Both the position numbers and the translations under genes were made by a program. Below are positions 11,153-45,964 of a stretch of DNA of 59,511 nucleotides, piece after piece (position 1 is the stretch's first letter; every line of letters begins with the position of its first letter). The notes below the pieces were generated by a model, which ran no database searches, had not been told where the DNA came from, and worked only from the letters and a program-made list of their open reading frames with translations. The stretch covers positions 1 to 59,511 of the forward strand of contig JADFAK010000142.1 of assembly GCA_015665315.1 (NCBI GenBank), given 5' to 3'. This stretch comes from Flavobacteriales bacterium. Lineage in GTDB: Bacteria > Bacteroidota > Bacteroidia > Flavobacteriales_D > Sanyastnellaceae.

Positions 11153-14100
11153 CTATCTGAGTATGGTTACCGGGCCAGTCAATGGTTCCGGGAACTGAGG
11201 TTCGTTAATATTTATGACGTAGTAATATGTTCCTATCGGAAGGACATTGCCTTCGTACGTACCGTCCCAAGGTTCACCATAGCCAATCGATTCGAAGAGT
11301 TGATCTCCCCAACGATTGTACACCTCAACGGTCGCATTCTTGTAGAAATGGATATATCCAATGGCCCAATTGTCATTTGTTCCATCACCATTTGGCGAGA
11401 AGCCCGATGGGATATCTATTTCTGGTATTACAGTTATCAATGTTGTGTCGGAAGAAGTACATCCGTTGGCATCAACGACTGTCACCACGTACTCCGTTGT
11501 GAAGAGCATTTCTACCGTGCTTGGATTGTAGGCAGCGCTGTCGCCAACAAGGTTTGACGGACTCCACCACAATTCGTTGCCATCTTCTGTAGTAGGCTCA
11601 CCACCCAAGGTTGTTGTTTCCTGGAAGAAGATTTCTTGGTCCAGACCAGCATTTGCCGAAGGCGCATCAAAAATCGTAATCATGATCGTATCGGAATCCA
11701 TGCACAAACCATCGATGGCCGTATAAATGAACTCGTAAACACCTGGCTCTGGTTCGATCAAGAGTATGTCGGACGTCGAAAGAATATTTCCTTCTAAATC
11801 GGTCCACTGCTCGTCGACACCACCTTCGTTGCTACCTGTCGCCAACCACGGTCCGTCGCCTTCACAGCCTTCGATATCGGCAGCTGCATTGGCAATCACT
11901 TCTCCCAATACGATGATTGGAATACTGGCGATTTCGATAATACAACCCAACGAATCCTGGATGGCAACTGAATAAGTTCCAGCATCGAGGCCATCTACAT
12001 CTTCTGTCGCTTCGCTAAATCCGTCGGGGCCAGTCCACGCATAGGTGTACGGTTCCCAACCGCCTGAAACGGTAATATCAATGGCTCCATCGACCGATGT
12101 TGGGCATGAAGTGTTGCTCAGAGAAACAATGCTCACATCCATGGGGCTCGGTTCGTCGATTTGGAAAGTGGCTGTGTTCGAACAAAGGTTCAAATCAATC
12201 ACTGTCACTTCGTATGTTCCAGGTGCCAAATCTTCAATATTCTGTTGGTCCGATGTATAACTGTTCGGTCCGATCCATGACACATTGTATGGCATCGTTC
12301 CACCTTCGATCTCCAAGTTAATCGCGCCGTCTTCTGCTTCAAAACATACGACTGGAATGATGTCTCCCAGAATTAAAAGTGAGTCTGGTTCGTTCAACTG
12401 AATCGAATCGGTGATTATACATCCGAGTTCGTCTTGGACTAGGTAAGTATACCAGCCTGCAGACAAGTCACTAATGTTTTGATCGTTCGAGGTAAAACCA
12501 TCGGCAGTCCAGAGAATATCTAGTACGCCTGTTCCTCCGCTTATTTCGGCGGCGATCGTGCCATTTGAATTTCCTACGCAAAGCGGTAAAGTCATGGTGG
12601 TATTGATCAATATTTCTTCGCCTTGGGTTACAGTGAACATCGTGTCCATCGAGCAACCAGTTTGATCCGTAATCAATAGATCGTAAGTGCCTGCCGCGAT
12701 CGAGGTCAAATCCTCATCCATTGATGTAAAATCGTTCGGACCTACCCAGCTGTATTGGAAGAATGATGATCCTCCTTGGGCCGTGATGTTGATGGCGCCT
12801 GTCGTATCTCCGTAGCAATTTACAGGAGTGATTTCGGCCATTACCTCAATAAGTGATGGTTCTTCTATACACATTTGCGCTTGCGCGGTACAAAAATTAT
12901 CATCCGTAACTAAGAGGTCATAACATCCTGCGGCCAAATCTTGCAAATTCGATGTGCTCGCAGTGAAGCCATTCGGACCTACCCACGAGTTGATGTATTG
13001 TGGTGTTCCTCCAGAAATCGAAGTTAACACTGCTCCCGTCGTATCTCCCGCACAGCTTACATTGCCTGTGGTGAAAACGATCGTAATTGAATCGGGCTCG
13101 GCTACCTCGATGGCTTCGCTGAACATACATCCAAGTGCATCCGTGGCAGTAACAGTATATGTTCCCGCTTCTAGATCCATGATATCCTCGTCGACCGAAG
13201 TAAACAATGAAGGCCCATCCCAATCGAATGTATACGGCTCATTTCCTCCGGAAACTGTAATGTCAATTGTACCATTCATTTGGCCGTTGCAAAGCACGTC
13301 TTGCACGTTGGACTCGATCAAACCTTCTAGATCTGAAAGCGCGATATTGGTTGTCACGCTGCAACCCAGGTCGTCGAAAACCTCTAGGTAAAAGTCTCCT
13401 GCTGACAAGTCAAGAAGTGTTGCATCCGTTCCTACCAAGACACCTCCGTTGGACATGTCGTACCAGAAATAGAAATAATCATCGGCTACTGTTCCGCCGC
13501 TCACGTTGGCTGTGATGCTTCCGTTGGCTTGCAGACAATTCGGCTCAACCACTTCTAGGTCGAGTATAATTTCGTTGTTCTCTTGAATGGTAATCACCTG
13601 CTCAACAGCGCAACCTGCGTCGTCTGACACATTGATGGTGTAGTCACCGGCTCCGACATTCGTCAAATCTTCGTTGGTCGACGTAAAGTCATCTGGACCC
13701 GTCCACAAGAAGTCATAAGGAGCATCGCCACCAGAAACGGTGATATTGATATCGGCTGTTTCTTCGCCAAAGCACAAGAATTCAGTTGCATCGACGAGAA
13801 GATCAAGCTCGGTCGACTCTTCAACGAAAACCGTGAGCATCGCGTCGCAAAGATTGGCGTCGGTCACAAATACCGTGTAGTCGCCTTGCGGTAAGTCTTG
13901 AATATCTTCGGTAATAAACGAGCCTGCTGGACCTTGCCAGTCGAAAATATAATCTTCGGTTCCTCCAAAAACGGTCAGGTCGATAGCTCCATTGTTTTCA
14001 CCGTTGCAGGAAATATCCTGAACGACGGCATCGAGAAGAAGTTCGTCGGGCTCAGTAAGATCAAAAGTCTCTGTGATGATACAACCGTTGGCATCTACAA

Positions 14101-17100
14101 TTTCAAGGTTGTAGGTCCCTGCTTCGAGTCCAAAAACATCTTCATCTGTCGAGCTAAAAGCATTGGGGCCAGTCCATAAAAAATCAAAAGGATCAGAGCC
14201 ATTTGTCACGTTAATTTCAATGCTTCCATCCAGGTCTCCGTTACACGTTGGGCCTTCAACAATCGATTCGAGATCAGCTACATCGGCATCCGAAATATTC
14301 ACTTCCAATGATACTTGACATCCACCGGCGTCTTGAGCTCCTGCGTAATAAAGTCCAGCAGGCAAGTCGGCAATCGACGTCCCAGCACCAATAATATTGA
14401 AGTCGGCATCAAGCCATCCGATAAGAACAGGGTCTTGTCCGCCCGTAACAATAACAGACGCCGATCCATTGTCTTCACCACACGTTGAATTCGTGAGTTC
14501 GTCCAGCGTAATTTCCATTAATTCTCCTTCGACAACTGTGAAGTCGCCAGTCTCTTCGCAGAAATTCGCGTCGATAACGGTTACCGTATAGTCTCCCGGT
14601 TGGAGATCTGAAAGATCTTCGTCGGTCGAACTAAAAGCTCCTGGACCATCCCATAAATATTGGTAGTCTGGTGTTGCACCACTCACGGTAAGATCAATCG
14701 CTCCGTCCATAAGACCTGAGCATGATAGGTCGGTTACGACACCATCGATTTGCAATCCAGAGGTGTTTTCAATTTCGTACGACAGGTCAACAACACAACC
14801 TCCTTGGTCGGAAATAGTGACGTTGTAAGTCCCGGGATCGAGGTTAAAGATATCTTCAGAAGTAGAAGAGAAGGCAAACGGACCAGACCAAATAAAGTCG
14901 TAGCTCGGCACACCACCTGATACCTCTAGTTCGATAGAACCTGTGTTTTCGTTTTCACAAAGCGGATTGCTCAAGGTTGCAATGGCGTCGAGTAATTGCG
15001 GTTGCTCGATGGTATATGTCGCATCAAATGTGCAGCCATTCGCATCGCCAATTGTGAGCATGTAATCGCCTTCGGCTAGATCAGTAATCAGTTCGTCGGA
15101 ACTTGTAAAACTATCCGGACCGATCCAAAGAATATTGTAATCTTCAACACCTCCTGAGATGACGATTTCAATCGACCCGTTGTCATCACCGCTGCAGTCA
15201 AGGTTGACGACTGTTGCGTCGACGTCTAGCTCTGCTGGCTCCGATAGGTCAAATTCTAGTTCAATAAAACATCCGTTGTCATCGGTTACCACTACCGTGT
15301 AGATATTGGCCAGGAGATCTGAAATATCTTCTTGCACCGAGTTAAATCCGGGAGCTGTCCATACTATGTCAATTGGCTCGGTTCCGCCAACAATTGTCAA
15401 ATCGATGGCTCCAAGTTCGCCGAAACAGGTAATTTCAGTTACGTCGCCAGTCACTTCAATTGTTTCTGGTGCAAGGATCTCGATTGAAGCCATTGCTGTA
15501 CATCCTGAATCATCTGTTACCAAGAGGTCATACGTTCCTTCGGCCAGGTCGGTCAGGTCTTCTTGATCCGATGTAAAGCTATCTGGTCCGGTCCAAGCTA
15601 CTGTGTAATCTGGCGTACCTCCTGAGATTGTGATATCAACCGCTCCAGTATCCTCGCTTCCACAAAGTGGGTTGGTAACGTCTGATACAATCGTAATTTC
15701 ATCTGGCTCGACGAGCATGATTCCGTTGATATCAACCGAACAACCCGCGTCGTCAGAAACATTGACATCGTAGGATCCTGCTGGAAGATCAGTTCGAATC
15801 AAGTCCGACTCACCCGTTCCCCAAAGGATCGTGTACGGTTCAACACCACCAGTAATGATCAATTCAATGCTTCCGTCGTCATCTCCAAAACAAGAGGGAT
15901 CAACGGTGATCACTTCCACGTCGATGGCTTCAGGCTCCGTCAATTCCACTTGGGCATCGGCCGAGCAACCGTTCGAATCAGAGACGTTTACGTCGTAGAT
16001 TCCTGGTCCTAAGTCTGACTGATCTTCATCGCCAACAACTACACCTGGGCCTGACCAAACAATCGTGAACGGACCTTGTCCGCCAGTAATCGTAAGATCA
16101 ATAGCGCCATCGTTGGCATTGTTGCATGTGATAGGGGTAACATCTGCGGACAATTCAAGCTCTTGTGGCTGGAATACTTCGATGTCGGCCATTTGCTGAC
16201 AACCAGCAATGTCGGTGACAGTCACAGAATAAACTCCTGCTTCTAAATCACTAATATCTTCATCGATAGAATTGAAGGCATTGGGTCCAGTCCAAACGAA
16301 AGAATAGTCGGGTGTTCCACCGAGAATACTTAGGTCGATTGCACCATCCGAATCACCGCCGCAACTTACATCGGTTACGTTGGAGAGGATTGAAATATCC
16401 AATGGCTCGATAAGCACGATGTCATTTTCTACGAAACAACCACTAGCATCGGTAATCACAACAAAATATTGTCCTGGCTCAAGGTCGATTAGATCTTCAT
16501 CAATTGAGACAAAACCATTCGGTCCAGTCCACGCGAAGGTGAAGTCTGGTGTTCCGCCAGTTACTGTCAGATCGATTTGACCGTCGTCGGCACCGGCACA
16601 AGTAATTTGTGTCACGTCGACTTCAACATCGATGAGTGGCGTAGGATCAATGGCGACAGTCGTAGTAAACACACAACCGTTGTCATCGGTAATGGTAAGA
16701 TCGTAATCTCCCACTTCCAATCCACTAATGTCTTCGTCGGTAGAAGAAAAAGCTGCTGGTCCAGTCCAACTCACATTGTAATTCGGTGTTCCGCCTGAAA
16801 TATCGATGTCAATCGCAGCATCTCCTGCTCCGTTGCATGAAATTGGTGTCACGGTAATATCGACCAAAATCTCTTCTGGTTCATCAATGGTAATGTCTCC
16901 TTCTAGGATACAATCGTTGGCATCGGTAATCACAAAATGATAGTCTCCCGCCTCGATATCGAAAATGTCTTCGTCGGTAGATCCAAATGCATTCGGGCCG
17001 GTCCAAATTACGTCGTAGTTTGGCGCTCCACCAGAAATATTCAATACAATCGACCCGTCGCTGTCACCTGGACATGAGACATGAACAACATCTGGCAAAA

Positions 17101-18808
17101 TCTCAATCAACGGTGGTTCATCTACTTCTACAGAAATTATCTGGGTACAACCGTTTTGATCGGTCAATTCCAAATCGTAGTCGCCAGCAAATAAGTTGGT
17201 GAGGTCTTCATCTGTCGAAGAATAGGCATTTGGGCCTGTCCATGCAAAATCATAAGGAGCCAAACCACCAGTTACTGTAATGCTAATCGTTCCATCATTC
17301 AAGCCACCGCAACTTACATCTTGAACATCGTCGATGACAATGTCAATAGCTGGTTCTTCGATGATTTGAAACGTGGTGTCGACCGAACATCCGAGTGGAT
17401 CGGTAACAGTAAGGTCATAAGATCCCGCAAGCTGACCGTTAATACTATTTCCTGTATCTCCAGTCGACCAATCAAAATCGTAGGAGCCACCATTCCCCCC
17501 TGTTGGATTGGAAATTGCAGATCCTGTTGCTGCTCCATTGCATTGTATATCGGTAATATCCACATTTGCGTATAGCGGAATAAGCTGCATAACAAAGGTA
17601 GAATCGAAAAGGCAACCGTTTTGATCTGTTACAGTAAGCGTATTACCGCCTTCGCATAACATGGTAGAAGTCTGACTAGTTTCCCCTGTCGACCATACAA
17701 AATCGTATCCCGGAACACCACCAATTACAATCGGCGTACCTGTTCCATTGCACAATCCCGCACAAGAAGGCGGAGTTGAGATGAAGCTAAATACGGTAAG
17801 TTGAGAAGGTTCAGCAAGTTGAACGTTGTCCACGCATGTAATTCCCTGTCCCAAGTCGGTCACTAGGATGGTGTAAGTTCCTGCACCGAGGTTCGCATAC
17901 GTTTGGGCGAAGCCTGGAGAATCGCCACCAATCCATTGAAAAATGAAGGGTCCTACTCCGCCAGAGACATTCACAAAAGTTTCTCCATCGTTGGCACCAT
18001 TGCAGCTAATATCCTCGCCATTGTAATTTGTCAAAACGACAGCTTCGATGGTGAAAGGCGTTTCTCCGGCACCGGTACCACAATTGGCGGTTCGATTGGC
18101 TGCAAATTCCAGTTCGAGTTCTCCAGAAGAGATAATCGTACCGTTGGCAACTGCATGGGAATTGTTCTGATTGATGTGAATTTGGTCACCTATGAGGACA
18201 TCTTCTCTGAAAAACAAGCTTGTTTCGCTCGCATTCCAGTTGGCTGGTCCGCTTGGATTGAACTCAAAATTTCCAGCGACAAGCGCAAATCCATTTTGGT
18301 CAAACGACGGAACATTAAGATGAACATCACTTGAAGTAAGTAGGTGGGCTGACAAGTCGACGGTGCCAGATCCTTGGACGTCCAAGGGATGTTTGAGCAC
18401 GTTTTTGCCAAAGTTCAGCTCGACTGCCTCGGTGGCAGTTACGACGATAGGTCCCTTGAAATCGAGGACACAATTGTCGGTAAAGCGAACGTCGCCGTTT
18501 ACTTGAATAGCTTCTTCCGTTTGAGATTCAAACAGTAGGGGTTGCGACGATAAGACTATCAAATCTCCGCAAGTTAAACCTTGTGCGATGTGAATTTCAC
18601 CACTAGACGTAAAGCTGTTGTCGTCAAAAACAACATCAGATTGGGCATTTGGGATCGAGGCTCCACCTTCACCACCAGACGTTTCCGACCAGTGTGAGGT
18701 ATTATGCCACTCTCCTGAATTTCCAATCCAGAATCGCGTCTGCGCTTTAGATACTAGGGTGGATCCAAGAAGCAGTGCACAGGTAACTATGTGACTTATT
18801 TTAACCAA
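11153..18808 (-). CDS. Giant SprB-like surface adhesin with CHU_C sorting domain
   Basis: A 2551-residue secreted protein. The signal peptide is MVKISHIVTCALLLGSTLVSKAQ, read from a TTG at 18808. There is no in-frame ATG or GTG before it down to the upstream stop, so the unusual start seems forced. Residues about 23-255 form an N-terminal domain (RFWIGNSGEWHNTSHWSE). Then come 26 SprB-type repeats of about 78 residues. After a Cys-containing spacer, the last 90 residues are a type B T9SS domain (IPSGFSPNGDGTNDNWAIGY, EVYNRWGDQLFES, GTYYYVININ). SprB-like proteins are mobile cell-surface filaments used in gliding. The gene sits between two PorP/SprF genes. The protein is strongly acidic, consistent with Ca-binding repeats in a marine organism. 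Confidence 0.93.
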   Translation of the reverse strand: MVKISHIVTCALLLGSTLVSKAQTRFWIGNSGEWHNTSHWSETSGGEGGASIPNAQSDVVFDDNSFTSSGEIHIAQGLTCGDLIVLSSQPLLFESQTEEAIQVNGDVRFTDNCVLDFKGPIVVTATEAVELNFGKNVLKHPLDVQGSGTVDLSAHLLTSSDVHLNVPSFDQNGFALVAGNFEFNPSGPANWNASETSLFFREDVLIGDQIHINQNNSHAVANGTIISSGELELEFAANRTANCGTGAGETPFTIEAVVLTNYNGEDISCNGANDGETFVNVSGGVGPFIFQWIGGDSPGFAQTYANLGAGTYTILVTDLGQGITCVDNVQLAEPSQLTVFSFISTPPSCAGLCNGTGTPIVIGGVPGYDFVWSTGETSQTSTMLCEGGNTLTVTDQNGCLFDSTFVMQLIPLYANVDITDIQCNGAATGSAISNPTGGNGGSYDFDWSTGDTGNSINGQLAGSYDLTVTDPLGCSVDTTFQIIEEPAIDIVIDDVQDVSCGGLNDGTISITVTGGLAPYDFAWTGPNAYSSTDEDLTNLFAGDYDLELTDQNGCTQIISVEVDEPPLIEILPDVVHVSCPGDSDGSIVLNISGGAPNYDVIWTGPNAFGSTDEDIFDIEAGDYHFVITDANDCILEGDITIDEPEEILVDITVTPISCNGAGDAAIDIDISGGTPNYNVSWTGPAAFSSTDEDISGLEVGDYDLTITDDNGCVFTTTVAIDPTPLIDVEVDVTQITCAGADDGQIDLTVTGGTPDFTFAWTGPNGFVSIDEDLIDLEPGQYFVVITDASGCFVENDIVLIEPLDISILSNVTDVSCGGDSDGAIDLSILGGTPDYSFVWTGPNAFNSIDEDISDLEAGVYSVTVTDIAGCQQMADIEVFQPQELELSADVTPITCNNANDGAIDLTITGGQGPFTIVWSGPGVVVGDEDQSDLGPGIYDVNVSDSNGCSADAQVELTEPEAIDVEVITVDPSCFGDDDGSIELIITGGVEPYTILWGTGESDLIRTDLPAGSYDVNVSDDAGCSVDINGIMLVEPDEITIVSDVTNPLCGSEDTGAVDITISGGTPDYTVAWTGPDSFTSDQEDLTDLAEGTYDLLVTDDSGCTAMASIEILAPETIEVTGDVTEITCFGELGAIDLTIVGGTEPIDIVWTAPGFNSVQEDISDLLANIYTVVVTDDNGCFIELEFDLSEPAELDVDATVVNLDCSGDDNGSIEIVISGGVEDYNILWIGPDSFTSSDELITDLAEGDYMLTIGDANGCTFDATYTIEQPQLLDAIATLSNPLCENENTGSIELEVSGGVPSYDFIWSGPFAFSSTSEDIFNLDPGTYNVTISDQGGCVVDLSYEIENTSGLQIDGVVTDLSCSGLMDGAIDLTVSGATPDYQYLWDGPGAFSSTDEDLSDLQPGDYTVTVIDANFCEETGDFTVVEGELMEITLDELTNSTCGEDNGSASVIVTGGQDPVLIGWLDADFNIIGAGTSIADLPAGLYYAGAQDAGGCQVSLEVNISDADVADLESIVEGPTCNGDLDGSIEINVTNGSDPFDFLWTGPNAFSSTDEDVFGLEAGTYNLEIVDANGCIITETFDLTEPDELLLDAVVQDISCNGENNGAIDLTVFGGTEDYIFDWQGPAGSFITEDIQDLPQGDYTVFVTDANLCDAMLTVFVEESTELDLLVDATEFLCFGEETADINITVSGGDAPYDFLWTGPDDFTSTNEDLTNVGAGDYTINVSDDAGCAVEQVITIQENNEIILDLEVVEPNCLQANGSITANVSGGTVADDYFYFWYDMSNGGVLVGTDATLLDLSAGDFYLEVFDDLGCSVTTNIALSDLEGLIESNVQDVLCNGQMNGTIDITVSGGNEPYTFDWDGPSLFTSVDEDIMDLEAGTYTVTATDALGCMFSEAIEVAEPDSITIVFTTGNVSCAGDTTGAVLTSISGGTPQYINSWVGPNGFTASTSNLQDLAAGCYDLLVTDDNFCTAQAQMCIEEPSLIEVMAEITPVNCYGDTTGAINITAQGGSSFFQYSWVGPNDFTSMDEDLTSIAAGTYDLLITDQTGCSMDTMFTVTQGEEILINTTMTLPLCVGNSNGTIAAEISGGTGVLDILWTADGFTSNDQNISDLSAGWYTYLVQDELGCIITDSIQLNEPDSLLILGDIIPVVCFEAEDGAINLEIEGGTMPYNVSWIGPNSYTSDQQNIEDLAPGTYEVTVIDLNLCSNTATFQIDEPSPMDVSIVSLSNTSCPTSVDGAIDITVSGGWEPYTYAWTGPDGFSEATEDVDGLDAGTYSVAIQDSLGCIIEIASIPIIVLGEVIANAAADIEGCEGDGPWLATGSNEGGVDEQWTDLEGNILSTSDILLIEPEPGVYEFIYTAIDGLCMDSDTIMITIFDAPSANAGLDQEIFFQETTTLGGEPTTEDGNELWWSPSNLVGDSAAYNPSTVEMLFTTEYVVTVVDANGCTSSDTTLITVIPEIDIPSGFSPNGDGTNDNWAIGYIHFYKNATVEVYNRWGDQLFESIGYGEPWDGTYEGNVLPIGTYYYVININEPQFPEPLTGPVTILR
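11930..18020 (-). repeat. 26 tandem SprB repeats within the giant adhesin gene
   Basis: Boundaries are approximate. Each unit of about 78 residues has a Cys-Asn/Gly-x-x-Asp-Gly-x-Ile start, a GG-x-PY-x-W-GP-FSS-DEDI-LEAG-Y core and a D-x-GC end. I counted 26 starts, from ISCNGANDGE to TSCPTSVDGA. Units 1-3, 16 and 20 are the most divergent. At DNA level the copies have drifted and are not identical. Confidence 0.88.
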
Positions 18809-40931: not shown

Positions 40932-41858
40932 ATGAATTTAGTAGAAGTTGGTACAGTCGCTTTCGACTCCATTGAAACTCCATTTGGAAAACGTGATAAG
41001 GTTGTTGGTGGCGCCGCAACATATATTTCTCTCGCCGCATCTTTCTTTGTTAAAGAGTCTGGATTGATCTCTGTTATCGGTGATGATTTTCCTAAAGACA
41101 TGCTTTCAAACATGGAAAACAAGGGTATTGATCTGCAAGGATTGCAAATAAAAGAGGGCGAAAAGTCCTTTTTCTGGTCGGGCAAATACCACTACGACAT
41201 GAATTCCAGAGATACGCTCATTACCGACCTCAACGTTTTGGCCGATTTTGATCCTGTCGTCCCTACTGATTATCACAATTGTGAGTTTCTGATGCTCGGT
41301 AATTTGGCCCCTTCTGTTCAGATGTCGGTAATAGACCAACTTCCTACTCGTCCAAAATTAGTCGTGCTCGATACCATGAATTTCTGGATGGACATTGCCC
41401 TGGACGAACTCCATGCTGTGTTGAAGAAAATTGACGTGCTCACTATCAACGACGAAGAGGCTAGACAGCTTTCTGGCGAACATTCTTTGGTAAAAGCCGC
41501 TCGTAAAATTTGTGACATGGGTCCTCGCATTCTCATTGTGAAGAAAGGAGAGCATGGTGCCTTACTTTTCCATGGTGATCGCGTTTTCTTCTCACCGGCC
41601 TTGCCGCTTGAGGAAGTTGTTGATCCTACGGGAGCAGGTGACACATTTGCCGGAGGCTTCATAGGATACCTTGCCAGCACGAAAGACATTAGTTTCGACA
41701 ACATGAAACGTGCAATAATCGTCGGATCCGCAATGGCTTCCTTTGCATGCGAAAAGTTTGGTCCAGAGCGTTTGCTAGAGCTCACGAAGGACGAAATCGA
41801 CACACGTGTGCGAGAATTCATCAATCTTACTGAAGTGGACATTGAATTGGTGAGCTAA
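40932..41858 (+). CDS. PfkB family carbohydrate/nucleoside kinase
   Basis: A 308-residue ribokinase-like kinase that phosphorylates a sugar or nucleoside hydroxyl. The N-terminal VGGAATYISLAASFF supplies the Gly-rich substrate site. The C-terminal signature VDPTGAGDTFAGGFIGYLA (from about residue 230) holds the anion hole and catalytic base D237. NDEEARQLSG and ILIVKKGEHGALLF are further family marks. The absence of residues typical of fructokinase or 2-keto-3-deoxygluconate kinase leaves the substrate open. Its stop codon abuts the stop codon of the convergent three-domain gene with no intervening nucleotide. Confidence 0.9.
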   Translation: MNLVEVGTVAFDSIETPFGKRDKVVGGAATYISLAASFFVKESGLISVIGDDFPKDMLSNMENKGIDLQGLQIKEGEKSFFWSGKYHYDMNSRDTLITDLNVLADFDPVVPTDYHNCEFLMLGNLAPSVQMSVIDQLPTRPKLVVLDTMNFWMDIALDELHAVLKKIDVLTINDEEARQLSGEHSLVKAARKICDMGPRILIVKKGEHGALLFHGDRVFFSPALPLEEVVDPTGAGDTFAGGFIGYLASTKDISFDNMKRAIIVGSAMASFACEKFGPERLLELTKDEIDTRVREFINLTEVDIELVS

Positions 41859-44516
41859 CTACCCACCAATTTTTCGCCATAATTTCCAGTCGATTCTCAT
41901 ACAGATAAGGGATGCCAATTCGGGACATTCCTGTCGGCATATTGACTCCAATTCCGAAGGCTTGATCTTATCGGTTCTGAGCAGACTCAAAGGAATTTTC
42001 ATGCCTACAAGTTCTCGCTCTACATCGGTGTTTTTGACGCCAAATGTGCGAATTGTTAGTTCTTCTATTCCGCCTGCTCTCTTGCTATCTAGGATGTACG
42101 AAAATGCACCCAAACTTTCCTCGTGATTTACAGGATTGATGTGTTTTGTCTCCAAAATGCGCTCGTGAATGCTCTCCTTGAAATCACGTTGCGCAGCTCC
42201 CAATATGATGGGCATAATAAAACCTCCACTTACAGCCAGCTCCTTGGTCGCATAACGAGCATTGTTGATATGCAAAGGATGGGTGTTTTTGAATAAATTA
42301 GAATAGGCCACACTCGTACTCAATCCTACAGGTCGTACGAGACTGTGTAAAATCAATTCGTTTTGTTCAAAACGCTGTAAATCAAACTGCTGGTTTCGGT
42401 TTATTGACTGCGCGCTTTGAATGAGTTTTTTACCTAATCTCTGCTTAGCCCTCGACTCGAAATATTCCGAAAATTCATGGGTATAATTCTCTGGGGTATT
42501 TGTTGTCTTCAGCGTTGGAAACAAGGATTTTCTCTTCATCGCGAGCACCCGTTCATCTCGTTGGTTGACCATAACAACGCGAGTTTCAACAACGGAAGAA
42601 AGTCCTTTGCTTGTTTCTCGAACATCGTCAATAATGAGGATTGTACGAAGGGTGTCTCCAGCATAAACAGCTTTATCATAAATAACATCTTCAACACTCA
42701 AATGATAAATACACGACTCTGAATAGCATTCAACCAGCATGCAGAGCGCCAAATTGATCAATAAGTGATACGGTACGAGTTGCTCCTCAAGACCTAGTTG
42801 TCTGGCATACGGTTTACTTGTCTCCAACGGATTTAAAGTCGGCACCAAGGAGTGCCAAGAAGAAGTCCACGATTCATCCAATGTGATCTCCATGGCGCTA
42901 CAAATGATCTTTCCTATAAAGACATTGTTGTGGTCAAACCCATAAGACAAGGTTCGTCCCGTAACTCCATCGTTTCGGGCCGACTTAGAGACGTATACTG
43001 GTCTATTTAGTTCGCGCTTCATTCTAGTCACAATAGGCGCTCCTAAAAATTGACCGTCTACAATCTGACATCCGCCTTCAAAAGCATCGACGATTTTTTT
43101 ATAGCGATCGCGTGTTGTTTTCGAAATGCCAAAAATTCGGTTAATTGGGTCAATTTGATCGAAATGCAATGCGATTTTCCCGTCAATTCCTATGTCTCTT
43201 GCACTGCGGCAATCTTCTAATAATCCAGGATAGTCTTTGGTATTCTCGTAGGGTGTGTCGAACAGTTTAATCCCGGCCGTTCTGGCGGCCGATAATACTT
43301 GAAATCTAGCCCAATGTAAATTCTGCTGCGTTCGCTCAGAGAATAGCTCGCTGAACAAATCGGCATGACCCAAAATGAGTGCGATATTCCGATCGGACGC
43401 TTTGGCGATAGCTCCAGCGTTCAAGATTCCCTCTGCAGTCTCGATCAAAGGAATAAATTTGAATGTATGGCTCGGTAAGCCCAACTCCAATTCTACCCGC
43501 ACTATAAGCCGTTCGTAGGCATCCACATCCTCAGCCGATCGCAACATGGGGAGAATGAAAGCCGTAATTCGCTCGGTGAATTTGATCTTTAAATCCTTGA
43601 CCAATTCTTTCATATTGTCCAGCTCATTCAAGCGTACGGCGACGTGTTTTCCTTCGAAAAGTCGGGTTTGAATATTGAACTGAATCAATGTTCGAGCATT
43701 CTCCTTTTGTGGCTGCGGACAACCATCTTCCAAATCCAATATCAACCAATCGGGATGGTGGAGGTCCTTTACTTTTTGGTATGTCTTTTCCGAAAATGTC
43801 CGCAAAAACAGGGCCGACCGAAACTGCATTTCACCACGTTGGCGGCTGCGAATGACCATTTCATTTGGATGAATGAAACCCAAGCTGGCGGTCACTTCTA
43901 AAAGATTCTTTTCAAACGCGCCTGGGCGGACGAACCGGTGATTTATCAGATCGATCATTGTGGTCGTGATGTTCTCAAACTCACCACGTTGCTCTTTATA
44001 AAGCGAGGTCCCTCCATCTATTTTGTAATCGACGGCTTCCAATATCTCTGGATGAATATCTCGAAGCTTATAGCAATTGCCCGTTCCTGCTTTGTTTGCA
44101 CTTGTCACAATAACCAACCGGTCTCGTTCAAACGCATATCTAGCCAAACCAGCCATGAATTCATCCAAATTTAAAAACAAAGCAAGCGCATCGCCATGCC
44201 TTCCCAATGCTGGCAAGGACTTTATAGCCACAGCTTCCTCGTTGAGTTTTTCAATCAATCCAAGTGGGAGGACGACTGTTCGTATTTCCTCCTGGTATTT
44301 TGAACGCGTAACAGCATCAAATATCTCCGGGGTCGCCAAAACACCACTAGGTTTATCTTTGGGCCGTTCCTTTAAGTCATACATTTTGTCTACACCTGCT
44401 TCGGTCATAGAAAGCAAGGCATAACCCACATGTGTAGGTAGGATAATTACGCCGTCATTGAGTAGAATGTCAAAGGTGCTAGAGACATCCAATATCTGGC
44501 CTATTTGGAGATTCAT
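41859..44516 (-). CDS. YrdC/Sua5 - CitE-like lyase - double-hotdog MaoC hydratase fusion
   Basis: One 885-residue chain with three enzyme-type regions. Residues 1-205 resemble YrdC/Sua5: ILPTHVGYALLSM for the PTxTxYGL strand, LKERPKDKPSG for the KxRP motif and TSANKAG at 138-144. Residues 232-503 are an HpcH/HpaI aldolase of the CitE/malyl-CoA lyase type: LDLEDG 260-265, VRLN 294-297, IETAEG 358-363, GHADL 383-387 and the C-terminal GIDGKIALHFDQIDPINRIF. Residues 515-850 are two MaoC-like hotdogs resembling mesaconyl-CoA hydratase: VYAGDTLR 617-624, NTHPLHI 744-750 and VSGGFIMPIILG. ATG at 44516 is chosen; a TTG 36 nt upstream is in frame. Lyase and hydratase would catalyse consecutive steps on malyl-, methylmalyl- or citramalyl-CoA. 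The role of the first domain is unknown. Confidence 0.82.
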   Translation of the reverse strand: MNLQIGQILDVSSTFDILLNDGVIILPTHVGYALLSMTEAGVDKMYDLKERPKDKPSGVLATPEIFDAVTRSKYQEEIRTVVLPLGLIEKLNEEAVAIKSLPALGRHGDALALFLNLDEFMAGLARYAFERDRLVIVTSANKAGTGNCYKLRDIHPEILEAVDYKIDGGTSLYKEQRGEFENITTTMIDLINHRFVRPGAFEKNLLEVTASLGFIHPNEMVIRSRQRGEMQFRSALFLRTFSEKTYQKVKDLHHPDWLILDLEDGCPQPQKENARTLIQFNIQTRLFEGKHVAVRLNELDNMKELVKDLKIKFTERITAFILPMLRSAEDVDAYERLIVRVELELGLPSHTFKFIPLIETAEGILNAGAIAKASDRNIALILGHADLFSELFSERTQQNLHWARFQVLSAARTAGIKLFDTPYENTKDYPGLLEDCRSARDIGIDGKIALHFDQIDPINRIFGISKTTRDRYKKIVDAFEGGCQIVDGQFLGAPIVTRMKRELNRPVYVSKSARNDGVTGRTLSYGFDHNNVFIGKIICSAMEITLDESWTSSWHSLVPTLNPLETSKPYARQLGLEEQLVPYHLLINLALCMLVECYSESCIYHLSVEDVIYDKAVYAGDTLRTILIIDDVRETSKGLSSVVETRVVMVNQRDERVLAMKRKSLFPTLKTTNTPENYTHEFSEYFESRAKQRLGKKLIQSAQSINRNQQFDLQRFEQNELILHSLVRPVGLSTSVAYSNLFKNTHPLHINNARYATKELAVSGGFIMPIILGAAQRDFKESIHERILETKHINPVNHEESLGAFSYILDSKRAGGIEELTIRTFGVKNTDVERELVGMKIPLSLLRTDKIKPSELESICRQECPELASLICMRIDWKLWRKIGG

Positions 44517-44850: not shown

Positions 44851-45831
44851 CTAATCGACCAGCAACACCGATATTTTTCCCGATGCGCGACGCTCTGCCA
44901 CATCTTTTAAGGCCTGTTTAGCTTCTTTAAACGTGTAAGTCTTGGAAATGTATGGCCGCAAATCGTGCGTTTCAAAGTAACCGAGAAGTTCTTCAATATT
45001 CCTCCTGTTCTGCTCGGGCTCGCGGCGGGTGAACGTGCTCCAAAATACGCCAATGATAGAACAGCCCTTTAATAGCGGCAAGTTCAATGGCATTTGCGCA
45101 ATTGCGCCAGAAGTAAAACCCAAAACCATAAACCTACCTTTCCAAGCTGTAGACCGAAGTGCGATTTCCGAAAATTTACCACCCACGGGATCACACATCA
45201 CATCGACGCCCTTTCCTCCTGTAAGTTCTTTGAGCTTGACTTTTAAATCTACTTCAGAATAATTGACCAATTCATCGGCACCCAACTGAGCACAAGTTGC
45301 CAATTTCTCCTTGGTTGACGCACAAGCAATAACTCGAGCACCCAGAATCTTCGCAACTTGAATAAGCGCACTTCCAACTCCCCCTGAGGCGCCCAAAATA
45401 GCAACCGTCTCACCTGCTCTAAGCTGGGCCCTGTCTTTCAAACAGTGAATTGCCGTTCCATACGCACAAATAAAAACCGATGCCGTCGTAAAATCCATTG
45501 CTTCCGGAATGCGAAAAGTGTTGTGGGCCGACGTGACCGCAACTTCACGAAAACCACCCCAAACAGAGCCCGATAAAACACGATCGCCTAGGGAAAAACC
45601 AGTAACACCTTCACCAATGGCCTCGATAGTTCCAGCATATTCCCCTCCAGGTGAAAAGGGTAATTGCGGCTTATATTGATCCAATCCCTTAATCGTTATC
45701 GTGTCAGGAAAATTCACCCCACACGCATGCACGCGTATACTCACTTGACCAGGACCGGGAGCAGCAGCCTCGATTTCATCAAATTCCAAGCTGTCAATAG
45801 GTCCATATTTCTTGCACAACAAAGCTCTCAT
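44851..45831 (-). CDS. NADPH:quinone oxidoreductase (zinc-free MDR family)
   Basis: A 326-residue medium-chain reductase of the quinone oxidoreductase branch. ATG at 45831 (MRALLCKKYGPIDSLEFDE) is the natural start; the upstream frame is Lys/Phe-rich non-coding-like sequence. Marks are GVNFPDTITIKG with no catalytic zinc cysteines at the usual sites, PFSPGGEYAGTIEAIGEGV, the nucleotide-binding GASGGVGSALIQVAKILGARVIA and the C-terminal YTFKEAKQALKDVAERRASGKISVLL. Activity on a quinone or an enoyl substrate cannot be told apart from sequence alone. It is divergent from the TonB-dependent receptor gene, with a shared 133-nt upstream region. Confidence 0.92.
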   Translation of the reverse strand: MRALLCKKYGPIDSLEFDEIEAAAPGPGQVSIRVHACGVNFPDTITIKGLDQYKPQLPFSPGGEYAGTIEAIGEGVTGFSLGDRVLSGSVWGGFREVAVTSAHNTFRIPEAMDFTTASVFICAYGTAIHCLKDRAQLRAGETVAILGASGGVGSALIQVAKILGARVIACASTKEKLATCAQLGADELVNYSEVDLKVKLKELTGGKGVDVMCDPVGGKFSEIALRSTAWKGRFMVLGFTSGAIAQMPLNLPLLKGCSIIGVFWSTFTRREPEQNRRNIEELLGYFETHDLRPYISKTYTFKEAKQALKDVAERRASGKISVLLVD

Positions 45832-45964
45832 AGCCTCGAAAGATAGAATTTTCTTCTTTTTATTCTTTAGCCTAAAGGCAAATGCGAACAGACACCCTTT
45901 CACTCCGTTTCAAGATGTAATAGGTCAACTTTCCGTTTATTATCTTTCCAAAAACTTTGACTCA

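Follow-up and report, generated by a model that had tools for sequence, protein, structure and literature searches.

Domain architecture of the fusion gene

The window analysed here is the whole 59,511-nucleotide stretch (positions 1 to 59,511) of contig JADFAK010000142.1 in assembly GCA_015665315.1, from a Flavobacteriales bacterium of the family Sanyastnellaceae. Its minus strand carries a gene in which a YrdC-like domain, a CitE-like (HpcH/HpaI) barrel and a MaoC-type double hotdog are joined in one protein. The YrdC fold is known for threonylcarbamoyl-AMP synthesis in tRNA modification. The minus-strand frame is free of stops over 885 codons (44516-41862), and its ATG aligns with that of the homologue in the second genome of the genus; the plus strand across 41859-44516 is closed by many stops. 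An initial annotation had given the same coordinates and one uninterrupted 885-codon frame, both of which hold, while leaving the strand unstated. The gene and its parts are as follows.

41859..44516, minus strand: whole fusion gene (ATG at 44516, 885 codons, stop codon at 41859-41861)
43902..44516, minus strand: YrdC-like domain, residues 1-205 (PF01300; closest solved relative Smu.1377c, 3l7v)
43005..43823, minus strand: CitE-like (HpcH/HpaI) barrel and lid, residues 232-504 (PF03328; solved relatives 3qll, 4l9y and 9nzb)
42447..42923, minus strand: first hotdog, about residues 532-690, boundaries estimated (FAS1_DH_region; profile match to 4e3e and 8hgn)
41967..42374, minus strand: second, putative catalytic hotdog, about residues 715-850, boundaries estimated (profile match to 4e3e and 8hgn; N744, H749, G764)
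41862..41966, minus strand: C-terminal tail, residues 851-885 (80% identity between the two species of the genus; also found in relatives that carry the CitE-MaoC core only)

Pfam searches recovered each of the three parts above its model cut-off: Sua5_yciO_yrdC (PF01300) at residues 17-173 (39.8 bits versus 25.1, E 4.4e-10), HpcH_HpaI (PF03328) at residues 233-451 (109.6 bits versus 25, E 1.8e-31) and FAS1_DH_region at residues 555-658 (24.2 bits versus 22, E 4e-5). The second hotdog has no Pfam match of its own and was recognised by profile match. The three fused domains of the initial annotation are thereby confirmed, and the motifs that it had listed (LDLEDG, VRLN, IETAEG and GHADL) are all present. 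The G+C content of the YrdC, CitE and MaoC parts (0.44, 0.45 and 0.43) differs little from the value for the window as a whole (0.44).

Conservation of the three-domain form

The full architecture is present in both genomes of the genus (2/2), with 67% identity over residues 1-883; genome G001 and record L013 were counted as one, so that the second genome is one genome, not two. Between the two species, the proportion of nonsynonymous differences (pN) was 0.278 for the YrdC part, 0.206 for CitE and 0.214 for MaoC, against saturated synonymous values (pS) of 0.793, 0.870 and 0.842; each of the parts is under purifying selection. The fusion is therefore not a chance frame or an assembly join, both of which are ruled out by the same frame in the second genome together with purifying selection throughout. 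An architecture search found the triple fusion in 2 of 399 genomes of the order, both belonging to the genus.

Distribution and origin of the CitE-MaoC core

When residues 221-885 were searched against the 399 genomes of the order, 20 genomes matched at E 1e-20, the genome of the window included. CitE and MaoC lie in one frame in 17 of these, and the match is limited to the CitE part in the other three (G172, G208 and G263). The 17 comprise the two YrdC-bearing genomes of the genus itself, two with a longer N-terminus (G170 and G269), one with a shortened fusion (G339) and 12 with the core; G277, counted among the 12, has a 710-codon frame whose N-terminus is known from frame length alone. Core-only fusions in other Flavobacteriales are about 660-720 residues long. 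In G170, a Pfam cNMP_binding domain (E 2.4e-17) stands ahead of the same core, and the G269 fusion is 98% identical to it:

L042:6149-9061 and L043:2556-5468: CitE-MaoC core behind cyclic-nucleotide-binding domain(s), 970 residues, from two genomes that belong to a different genus in the family

The shortened fusion of G339 (L044:733-2223) ends after the first hotdog, within its contig, as a truncated gene or a frameshift would. The G124 frame (L041) carries a long stretch at its N-terminus that has no Pfam match and looks like upstream read-through; 338 residues were cut from this row before alignment.

At the level of the phylum, the whole protein matched 41 of 345 genomes at 1e-12, namely its own and 40 others. 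The 40 others did not show the double hotdog: among the matches listed, none extends past residue 539. A profile of the MaoC part found the genome of the window only among 296 phylum genomes at 1e-10, and none of the plasmid records covers 80% of the core. Among the sampled genomes, the CitE-MaoC core is limited to a subset of the order, and the three-domain form is a genus-level elaboration.

Phylogenetic analysis of the CitE parts placed the window and its sister in a group with core-only sequences from two other families (support 99/96), which indicates that YrdC was added late to a pre-existing core. That all fused CitE parts share one origin was unsupported (19/48). As for the view that the architecture was undescribed, no publication that mentions YrdC together with HpcH, or with both citrate lyase and MaoC, was found in a literature search that excludes most subscription journals, but the fusion of CitE to MaoC is not unique to the window protein.

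A double hotdog of the mesaconyl-CoA hydratase type

A profile built from ten relatives (A3, 353 positions) matched 4e3e, a MaoC domain dehydratase, at E 5e-18 (6-294) and 8hgn, a beta-methylmalyl-CoA dehydratase, at E 6e-9 (10-297), spanning both hotdogs in each case. The available part of PMC10164722 describes the malate site of MeMeaC as Phe71, Ser79, Asn85, Arg142, Asn226, His231, Tyr248 and Gly249, with Asn226 and His231 as the putative catalytic pair. On this partial description, Ser79, Arg142, Asn226, His231 and Gly249 correspond to S599, R662, N744, H749 and G764 of the window protein and are all kept, and S599, H605 and R662 fall in the predicted substrate pocket of the first hotdog. 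The putative catalytic His is conserved in 15/15 fused sequences, a count that leaves out G277 (matched in two overlapping pieces) and the shortened G339.

The window protein accordingly has in common with mesaconyl-CoA hydratase and beta-methylmalyl-CoA dehydratase the double hotdog, the putative Asn/His pair and three of the other six malate-site residues (Ser, Arg and Gly), the remaining three (Phe71, Asn85 and Tyr248) being replaced, and the mesaconyl-CoA-hydratase-like character first proposed for this region is borne out by the profile matches and the retained pair. Unlike mesaconyl-CoA hydratase, it sits behind a CitE barrel, carries an extra C-terminal tail and stays below the Pfam PF19315 cut-off. 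As judged from these residues, the hotdog half probably hydrates or dehydrates its substrate with N744 and H749.

A CitE-like barrel with glycine at the lid position

The barrel keeps D261, E263, D264, R295, E359 and D386. The 15 fused sequences are only about 30% identical, and the equivalents of the Mg ligands E359 and D386 and of the active R295 occur in all of them (15/15). Position 263 is Gln in 5/15, with D261 and D264 kept. Barrel, ExD motif, Arg and Glu/Asp Mg ligands are the same as in malyl-CoA lyase (4l9y), citrate lyase beta, RipC and the acyl-CoA lyase 9nzb. The scores remain below the NCBIfam cut-offs for the RipC equivalog (123.8 versus 375) and for RipB (16.2 versus 340).

What distinguishes the window protein from the CitE-like lyases is Gly in place of the lid Asp. 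This residue (G492, within GxxxGxP) is Gly in 15/15 fused sequences and in 14/14 rows of a realignment from which G269 was left out as 98% identical to G170, as it was from the CitE tree. Equating G492 with Asp299 is an inference from a shared pattern and from 3qll and 9nzb, both of which align an Asp here; the printed 4l9y alignment ends before it. Reference CitE, RipC-like and haloarchaeal sequences have GxM[IV]D at the lid position. According to the available part of PMC3832036, conservation of the Arg and of the lid Asp (Asp299/Asp318) extends across the CitE-like superfamily and the malate synthases, the sole exception given for the lid Asp being a malyl-CoA-thioesterase group with Glu. 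With Gly at this position throughout, ordinary malyl-CoA lyase activity is doubtful, and a plain lyase cannot be assumed. In the CitE tree, the window CitE lies outside a clade of seven lid-Asp rows and four reference rows (100/98); a Streptomyces reference row within this lid-Asp clade also has Gly, and this CoA ester lyase adjoins a MaoC gene.

One explanation of the missing Asp would treat the barrel as a scaffold, catalytically dead or limited to binding, on which the thioester is held for the hotdog enzyme. The absence of the lid Asp from every fused sequence (0/15) agrees with it. We nevertheless consider a dead scaffold quite improbable: Mg ligands and Arg are retained in 15/15, D261 and D264 are kept and position 263 is Glu or Gln, all at about 30% identity, and a dead scaffold would not need these residues.

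Lid-Gly CitE genes and MaoC genes at other loci

We surveyed 33 stand-alone CitE loci, of which 24 have the lid Asp and nine have Gly. A MaoC gene lies nearby, within stretches of less than 4 kb, in 9/9 lid-Gly loci versus 0/24 lid-Asp loci, and seven of the nine contain a second CitE gene as well. With a tenth locus (L091) added, the first CitE carries Gly in 10/10 and the second carries Glu in 6/7 and Thr in 1/7. The link between lid Gly and MaoC is not exclusive, since a RipC-like gene with the lid Asp adjoins RipB.

These sets of lid-Gly CitE, MaoC and often lid-Glu CitE (L083-L092; for example, L085:5563-11424) are clustered in polysaccharide-type loci of Bacteroidota. Ten neighbouring genes, tested in five of the ten loci, proved to be of nucleotidyl transferase, dehydratase/epimerase, DegT aminotransferase, glycosyl transferase, asparagine synthase, and hexapeptide or Antibiotic_NAT acyltransferase types. 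Such sets may make an acyl-CoA for the N-acylation of an amino sugar. The acyl group of the Flavobacterium psychrophilum O-antigen was followed as a lead and dropped; the available part of PMC6519341 describes an acyl-carrier-protein/ketoacyl-synthase route. The polysaccharide-locus sets and the window protein both pair a lid-Gly CitE with a hotdog hydratase. The former, however, are separate genes with a single hotdog of about 155 residues beside sugar-nucleotide and acyltransferase genes, whereas the inspected neighbourhoods of fused genes are of other kinds.

The initial annotation had proposed a channelling bifunctional enzyme, in which a malyl- or methylmalyl-CoA lyase and a mesaconyl-CoA hydratase would work in sequence; on this reading YrdC would be a passenger or bind a CoA-like ligand. 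Part of this stands: both halves match the proper families, the Mg ligands and the Arg are in place, and genes of the two kinds adjoin elsewhere, RipC-like beside RipB and lid-Gly CitE beside MaoC in all nine loci. In the genome of the window, moreover, no malate synthase barrel was seen and a single family III CoA transferase is present, a combination consistent with, though no proof of, a role in glyoxylate or mesaconate metabolism. Against channelling stand the missing lid Asp (15/15), the lack of pathway genes seen beside the fusion gene and the unspecific nature of the family III CoA transferase, which occurs in 9/10 genomes tested. We therefore regard a channelling lyase-hydratase as unlikely.

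An additional, non-canonical YrdC domain

The KxR/SxN tetrad of the fused YrdC domain (K49, R51, S139 and N141) is kept and invariant in alignment A4, and T138 is also kept. The KxR/SxN residues belong to a nucleotide-using family in which TsaC has Thr before SxN (available part of PMC10321239). Nothing was found that points to CoA binding by this part, and the idea that YrdC had been reused for a CoA-like ligand is not sustained by residues of this kind. The domain thus has PF01300, the tetrad and the Thr before SxN in common with TsaC, Sua5 and YciO. It is unlike TsaC and Sua5 in having PTHVGY for PT[DE]T, in having GTG after SAN (a SAN-xx-GTG signature) and in being the third YrdC of its genome. 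The PT[DE]T criterion was derived from the other alignment rows, not from the literature. A motif scan of 29 non-window loci, four of which gave no result, found PT[DE]T in 24 of the other 25, the 25th (L108) giving a false pattern hit at the N-terminal motif; GTG after SAN was seen in 0/25. The NCBIfam TIGR00057 score of the fused domain is 29.7 versus a cut-off of 123.2, and Pfam showed no SUA5 domain in the window protein.

Among solved structures, only its closest relative, Smu.1377c (3l7v), matched at E 0.01 or better (8.5e-7). This protein is listed as putative and uncharacterized, and is YrdC-like by match; PTxVGY and SAN-xx-GxGN are common to both, whereas Smu.1377c is stand-alone and the window YrdC is fused. 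A two-row YrdC profile found the genus only at 1e-12 among 299 genomes of the order and its own genome only at 1e-9 among 247 phylum genomes, and a wider five-row profile matched 65 of 326 phylum genomes at 1e-12.

The genome of the window encodes two further YrdC genes, each scoring 154 bits against 43.7 for the fused domain. One of them (L001, contig C2) has KxR, SxN and PTDT, the full TsaC-type motifs, which rules out that the fused domain replaces the housekeeping TsaC. The other (L002, contig C64) reaches 154 bits, yet lacks KxR and SxN in the alignment, as well as PT[DE]T; without KxR and SxN it is unlikely to be a second TsaC. Three YrdC genes are likewise present in the other species of the genus, and two in each of ten relatives whose fusions are core-only or carry the cyclic-nucleotide domain. 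The fused YrdC is an extra paralogue.

Stand-alone relatives of the odd YrdC type

Among 72,556 plasmid records, the YrdC domain query matched two at 1e-3:

L097:6217-7711: two YrdC genes in tandem on a Variovorax plasmid, beside genes for a phosphoenolpyruvate (PEP) mutase/isocitrate lyase, an AMP-binding CoA ligase and isopropylmalate dehydratase subunits
L098:6956-7663: YrdC gene on a Pantoea plasmid, beside a gene of unknown type and a PEP-utilizers_C barrel

The PEP mutase/isocitrate lyase, PEP-utilizers_C and CitE barrels belong to one PEP/pyruvate-type superfamily. In the YrdC tree, the five sequences of this type are split from 35 other YrdC rows (98/95); long branches in this tree (L002, Pantoea and the window pair) may be falsely joined. 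The Pantoea gene also speaks against a tight family: it scores 88 bits against Pfam YrdC and 73 bits against TIGR00057, shares 27-30% identity with plasmid genes that bear the name threonylcarbamoyladenylate synthase and is 25% identical to the window YrdC. The Variovorax gene has no further plasmid relative at 1e-8, and no phage record matches. The fused YrdC and the stand-alone YrdCs of carboxylate loci appear to group together loosely. Besides the fusion, two loci link YrdC to carboxylate metabolism, an association that was recognised post hoc.

A three-step enzyme, in which YrdC would use ATP in the manner of TsaC to activate an amino acid or some small carboxylate and pass the product to the CoA part, is compatible with the complete KxR/SxN tetrad and with the odd-type relatives beside carboxylate-metabolism genes in Variovorax and a PEP-utilizers_C barrel in Pantoea. 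These are two loci only, read post hoc, with no further plasmid or phage relatives of the Variovorax gene, and the Pantoea gene is also near ordinary YrdCs. Moreover, the PT[DE]T motif is lost, and the core is present without YrdC in other genera, where YrdC is consequently not a required step. A catalytic YrdC of this kind thus seems very doubtful. A broader proposal, that the SAN-xx-GTG type left tRNA modification and would activate or carbamoylate a substrate with ATP for partners with PEP/pyruvate-type barrels, and that in the window protein this type is fused to a CitE barrel able to work without the lid Asp, is rather unlikely as well.

Genomic neighbourhood

The genes on either side of the fusion gene are as follows.

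44851..45903, minus strand: upstream NAD(P)H quinone oxidoreductase-like gene (PIG3-like; NCBIfam match below the model cut-off)
40932-41858: convergent PfkB-type kinase gene, directly abutting the fusion gene (NCBIfam match below the model cut-off)

The second genome of the genus has a similar gene order, with a like gene at the quinone-oxidoreductase position, as judged by eye. In both genomes the gap between this gene and the fusion gene exceeds 300 bases, so that a common operon with the upstream gene is not shown. The neighbours of core fusions vary by genus (his genes; TauD with a ferredoxin-reductase-type gene; DnaG/RsmA; a SulP-type transporter); genomic context was therefore dropped as a clue, and nothing is concluded from it on the pathway. 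A 508-residue protein that recurs as a neighbour at four loci of one genus was first taken for a possible carboxylase and turned out to be the SulP-type transporter. In G112, a retron-type reverse transcriptase gene (L046:7713-8828) adjoins the core fusion gene. Elsewhere in the window, the minus strand at 11153-18808 holds a 2551-residue frame with many repeated units, lying between two further frames that may encode PorP/SprF-type membrane proteins.

Proposed function

Our preferred reading, held with slightly less than even confidence, is that the protein would be a dicarboxylyl-CoA hydratase/dehydratase of the mesaconyl-CoA-hydratase type, with a modified CitE barrel and a genus-added, non-canonical YrdC domain as a nucleotide-binding accessory. 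The double hotdog would add or remove water through N744 and H749, interconverting a carboxylated, mesaconyl-CoA-like enoyl-CoA and a malyl-type 3-hydroxyacyl-CoA. The CitE barrel would bind the same malyl-type thioester through Mg (E359 and D386) and R295, and would either cleave or form a C-C bond or, given the absence of the lid Asp, which serves the enolate, have acquired a different activity towards this thioester. That it is a C-C lyase is conceivable though somewhat doubtful, the alternative being another reaction or binding only. The YrdC domain may bind ATP or a related nucleotide and tune the enzyme, occupying the same slot as the cyclic-nucleotide-binding domain of the related genus; by that analogy, nucleotide binding with a regulatory effect is a reasonable but tentative suggestion. 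Malyl-CoA lyases are dimers of trimers (available part of PMC3832036) and MeMeaC is a trimer (available part of PMC10164722); with this trimeric symmetry the two halves match, and a common threefold assembly would be possible.

Several observations, along with the lid Gly described above, weigh against this reading. The match to Pfam MC_hydratase (PF19315, residues 532-674) is below the cut-off (17.0 versus 26.5), as is that to NCBIfam NF041625 (15.2 versus 560). Of the MeMeaC site as given in the available part of its description, Phe71, Asn85 and Tyr248 are replaced by L591, H605 and S763, and the putative catalytic Asn is present in 13/15 fused sequences, having been lost in G170 and G269. 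The regulatory view draws an analogy between two different domains. No pathway genes shared between genera were seen beside fused genes in the neighbourhoods inspected. AlphaFold2, run on two-row alignments, returned a mean predicted local distance difference test score of 29.9 for the whole chain and 31.9 for the YrdC domain, and these models were not used. Overall, the interpretation offered by the initial annotation is partly supported.

The genus-level architecture is new, and it is built on a fused CitE-hydratase core found in part of the order. It links a fold known for threonylcarbamoyl-AMP synthesis to CoA-thioester chemistry in two species under purifying selection, and the fusion is a natural protein in which this YrdC/CoA-thioester link is testable. 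CitE-like enzymes that lack the supposedly conserved lid Asp, fused here and in polysaccharide loci elsewhere, are likewise proteins against which the accepted lyase mechanism is testable.

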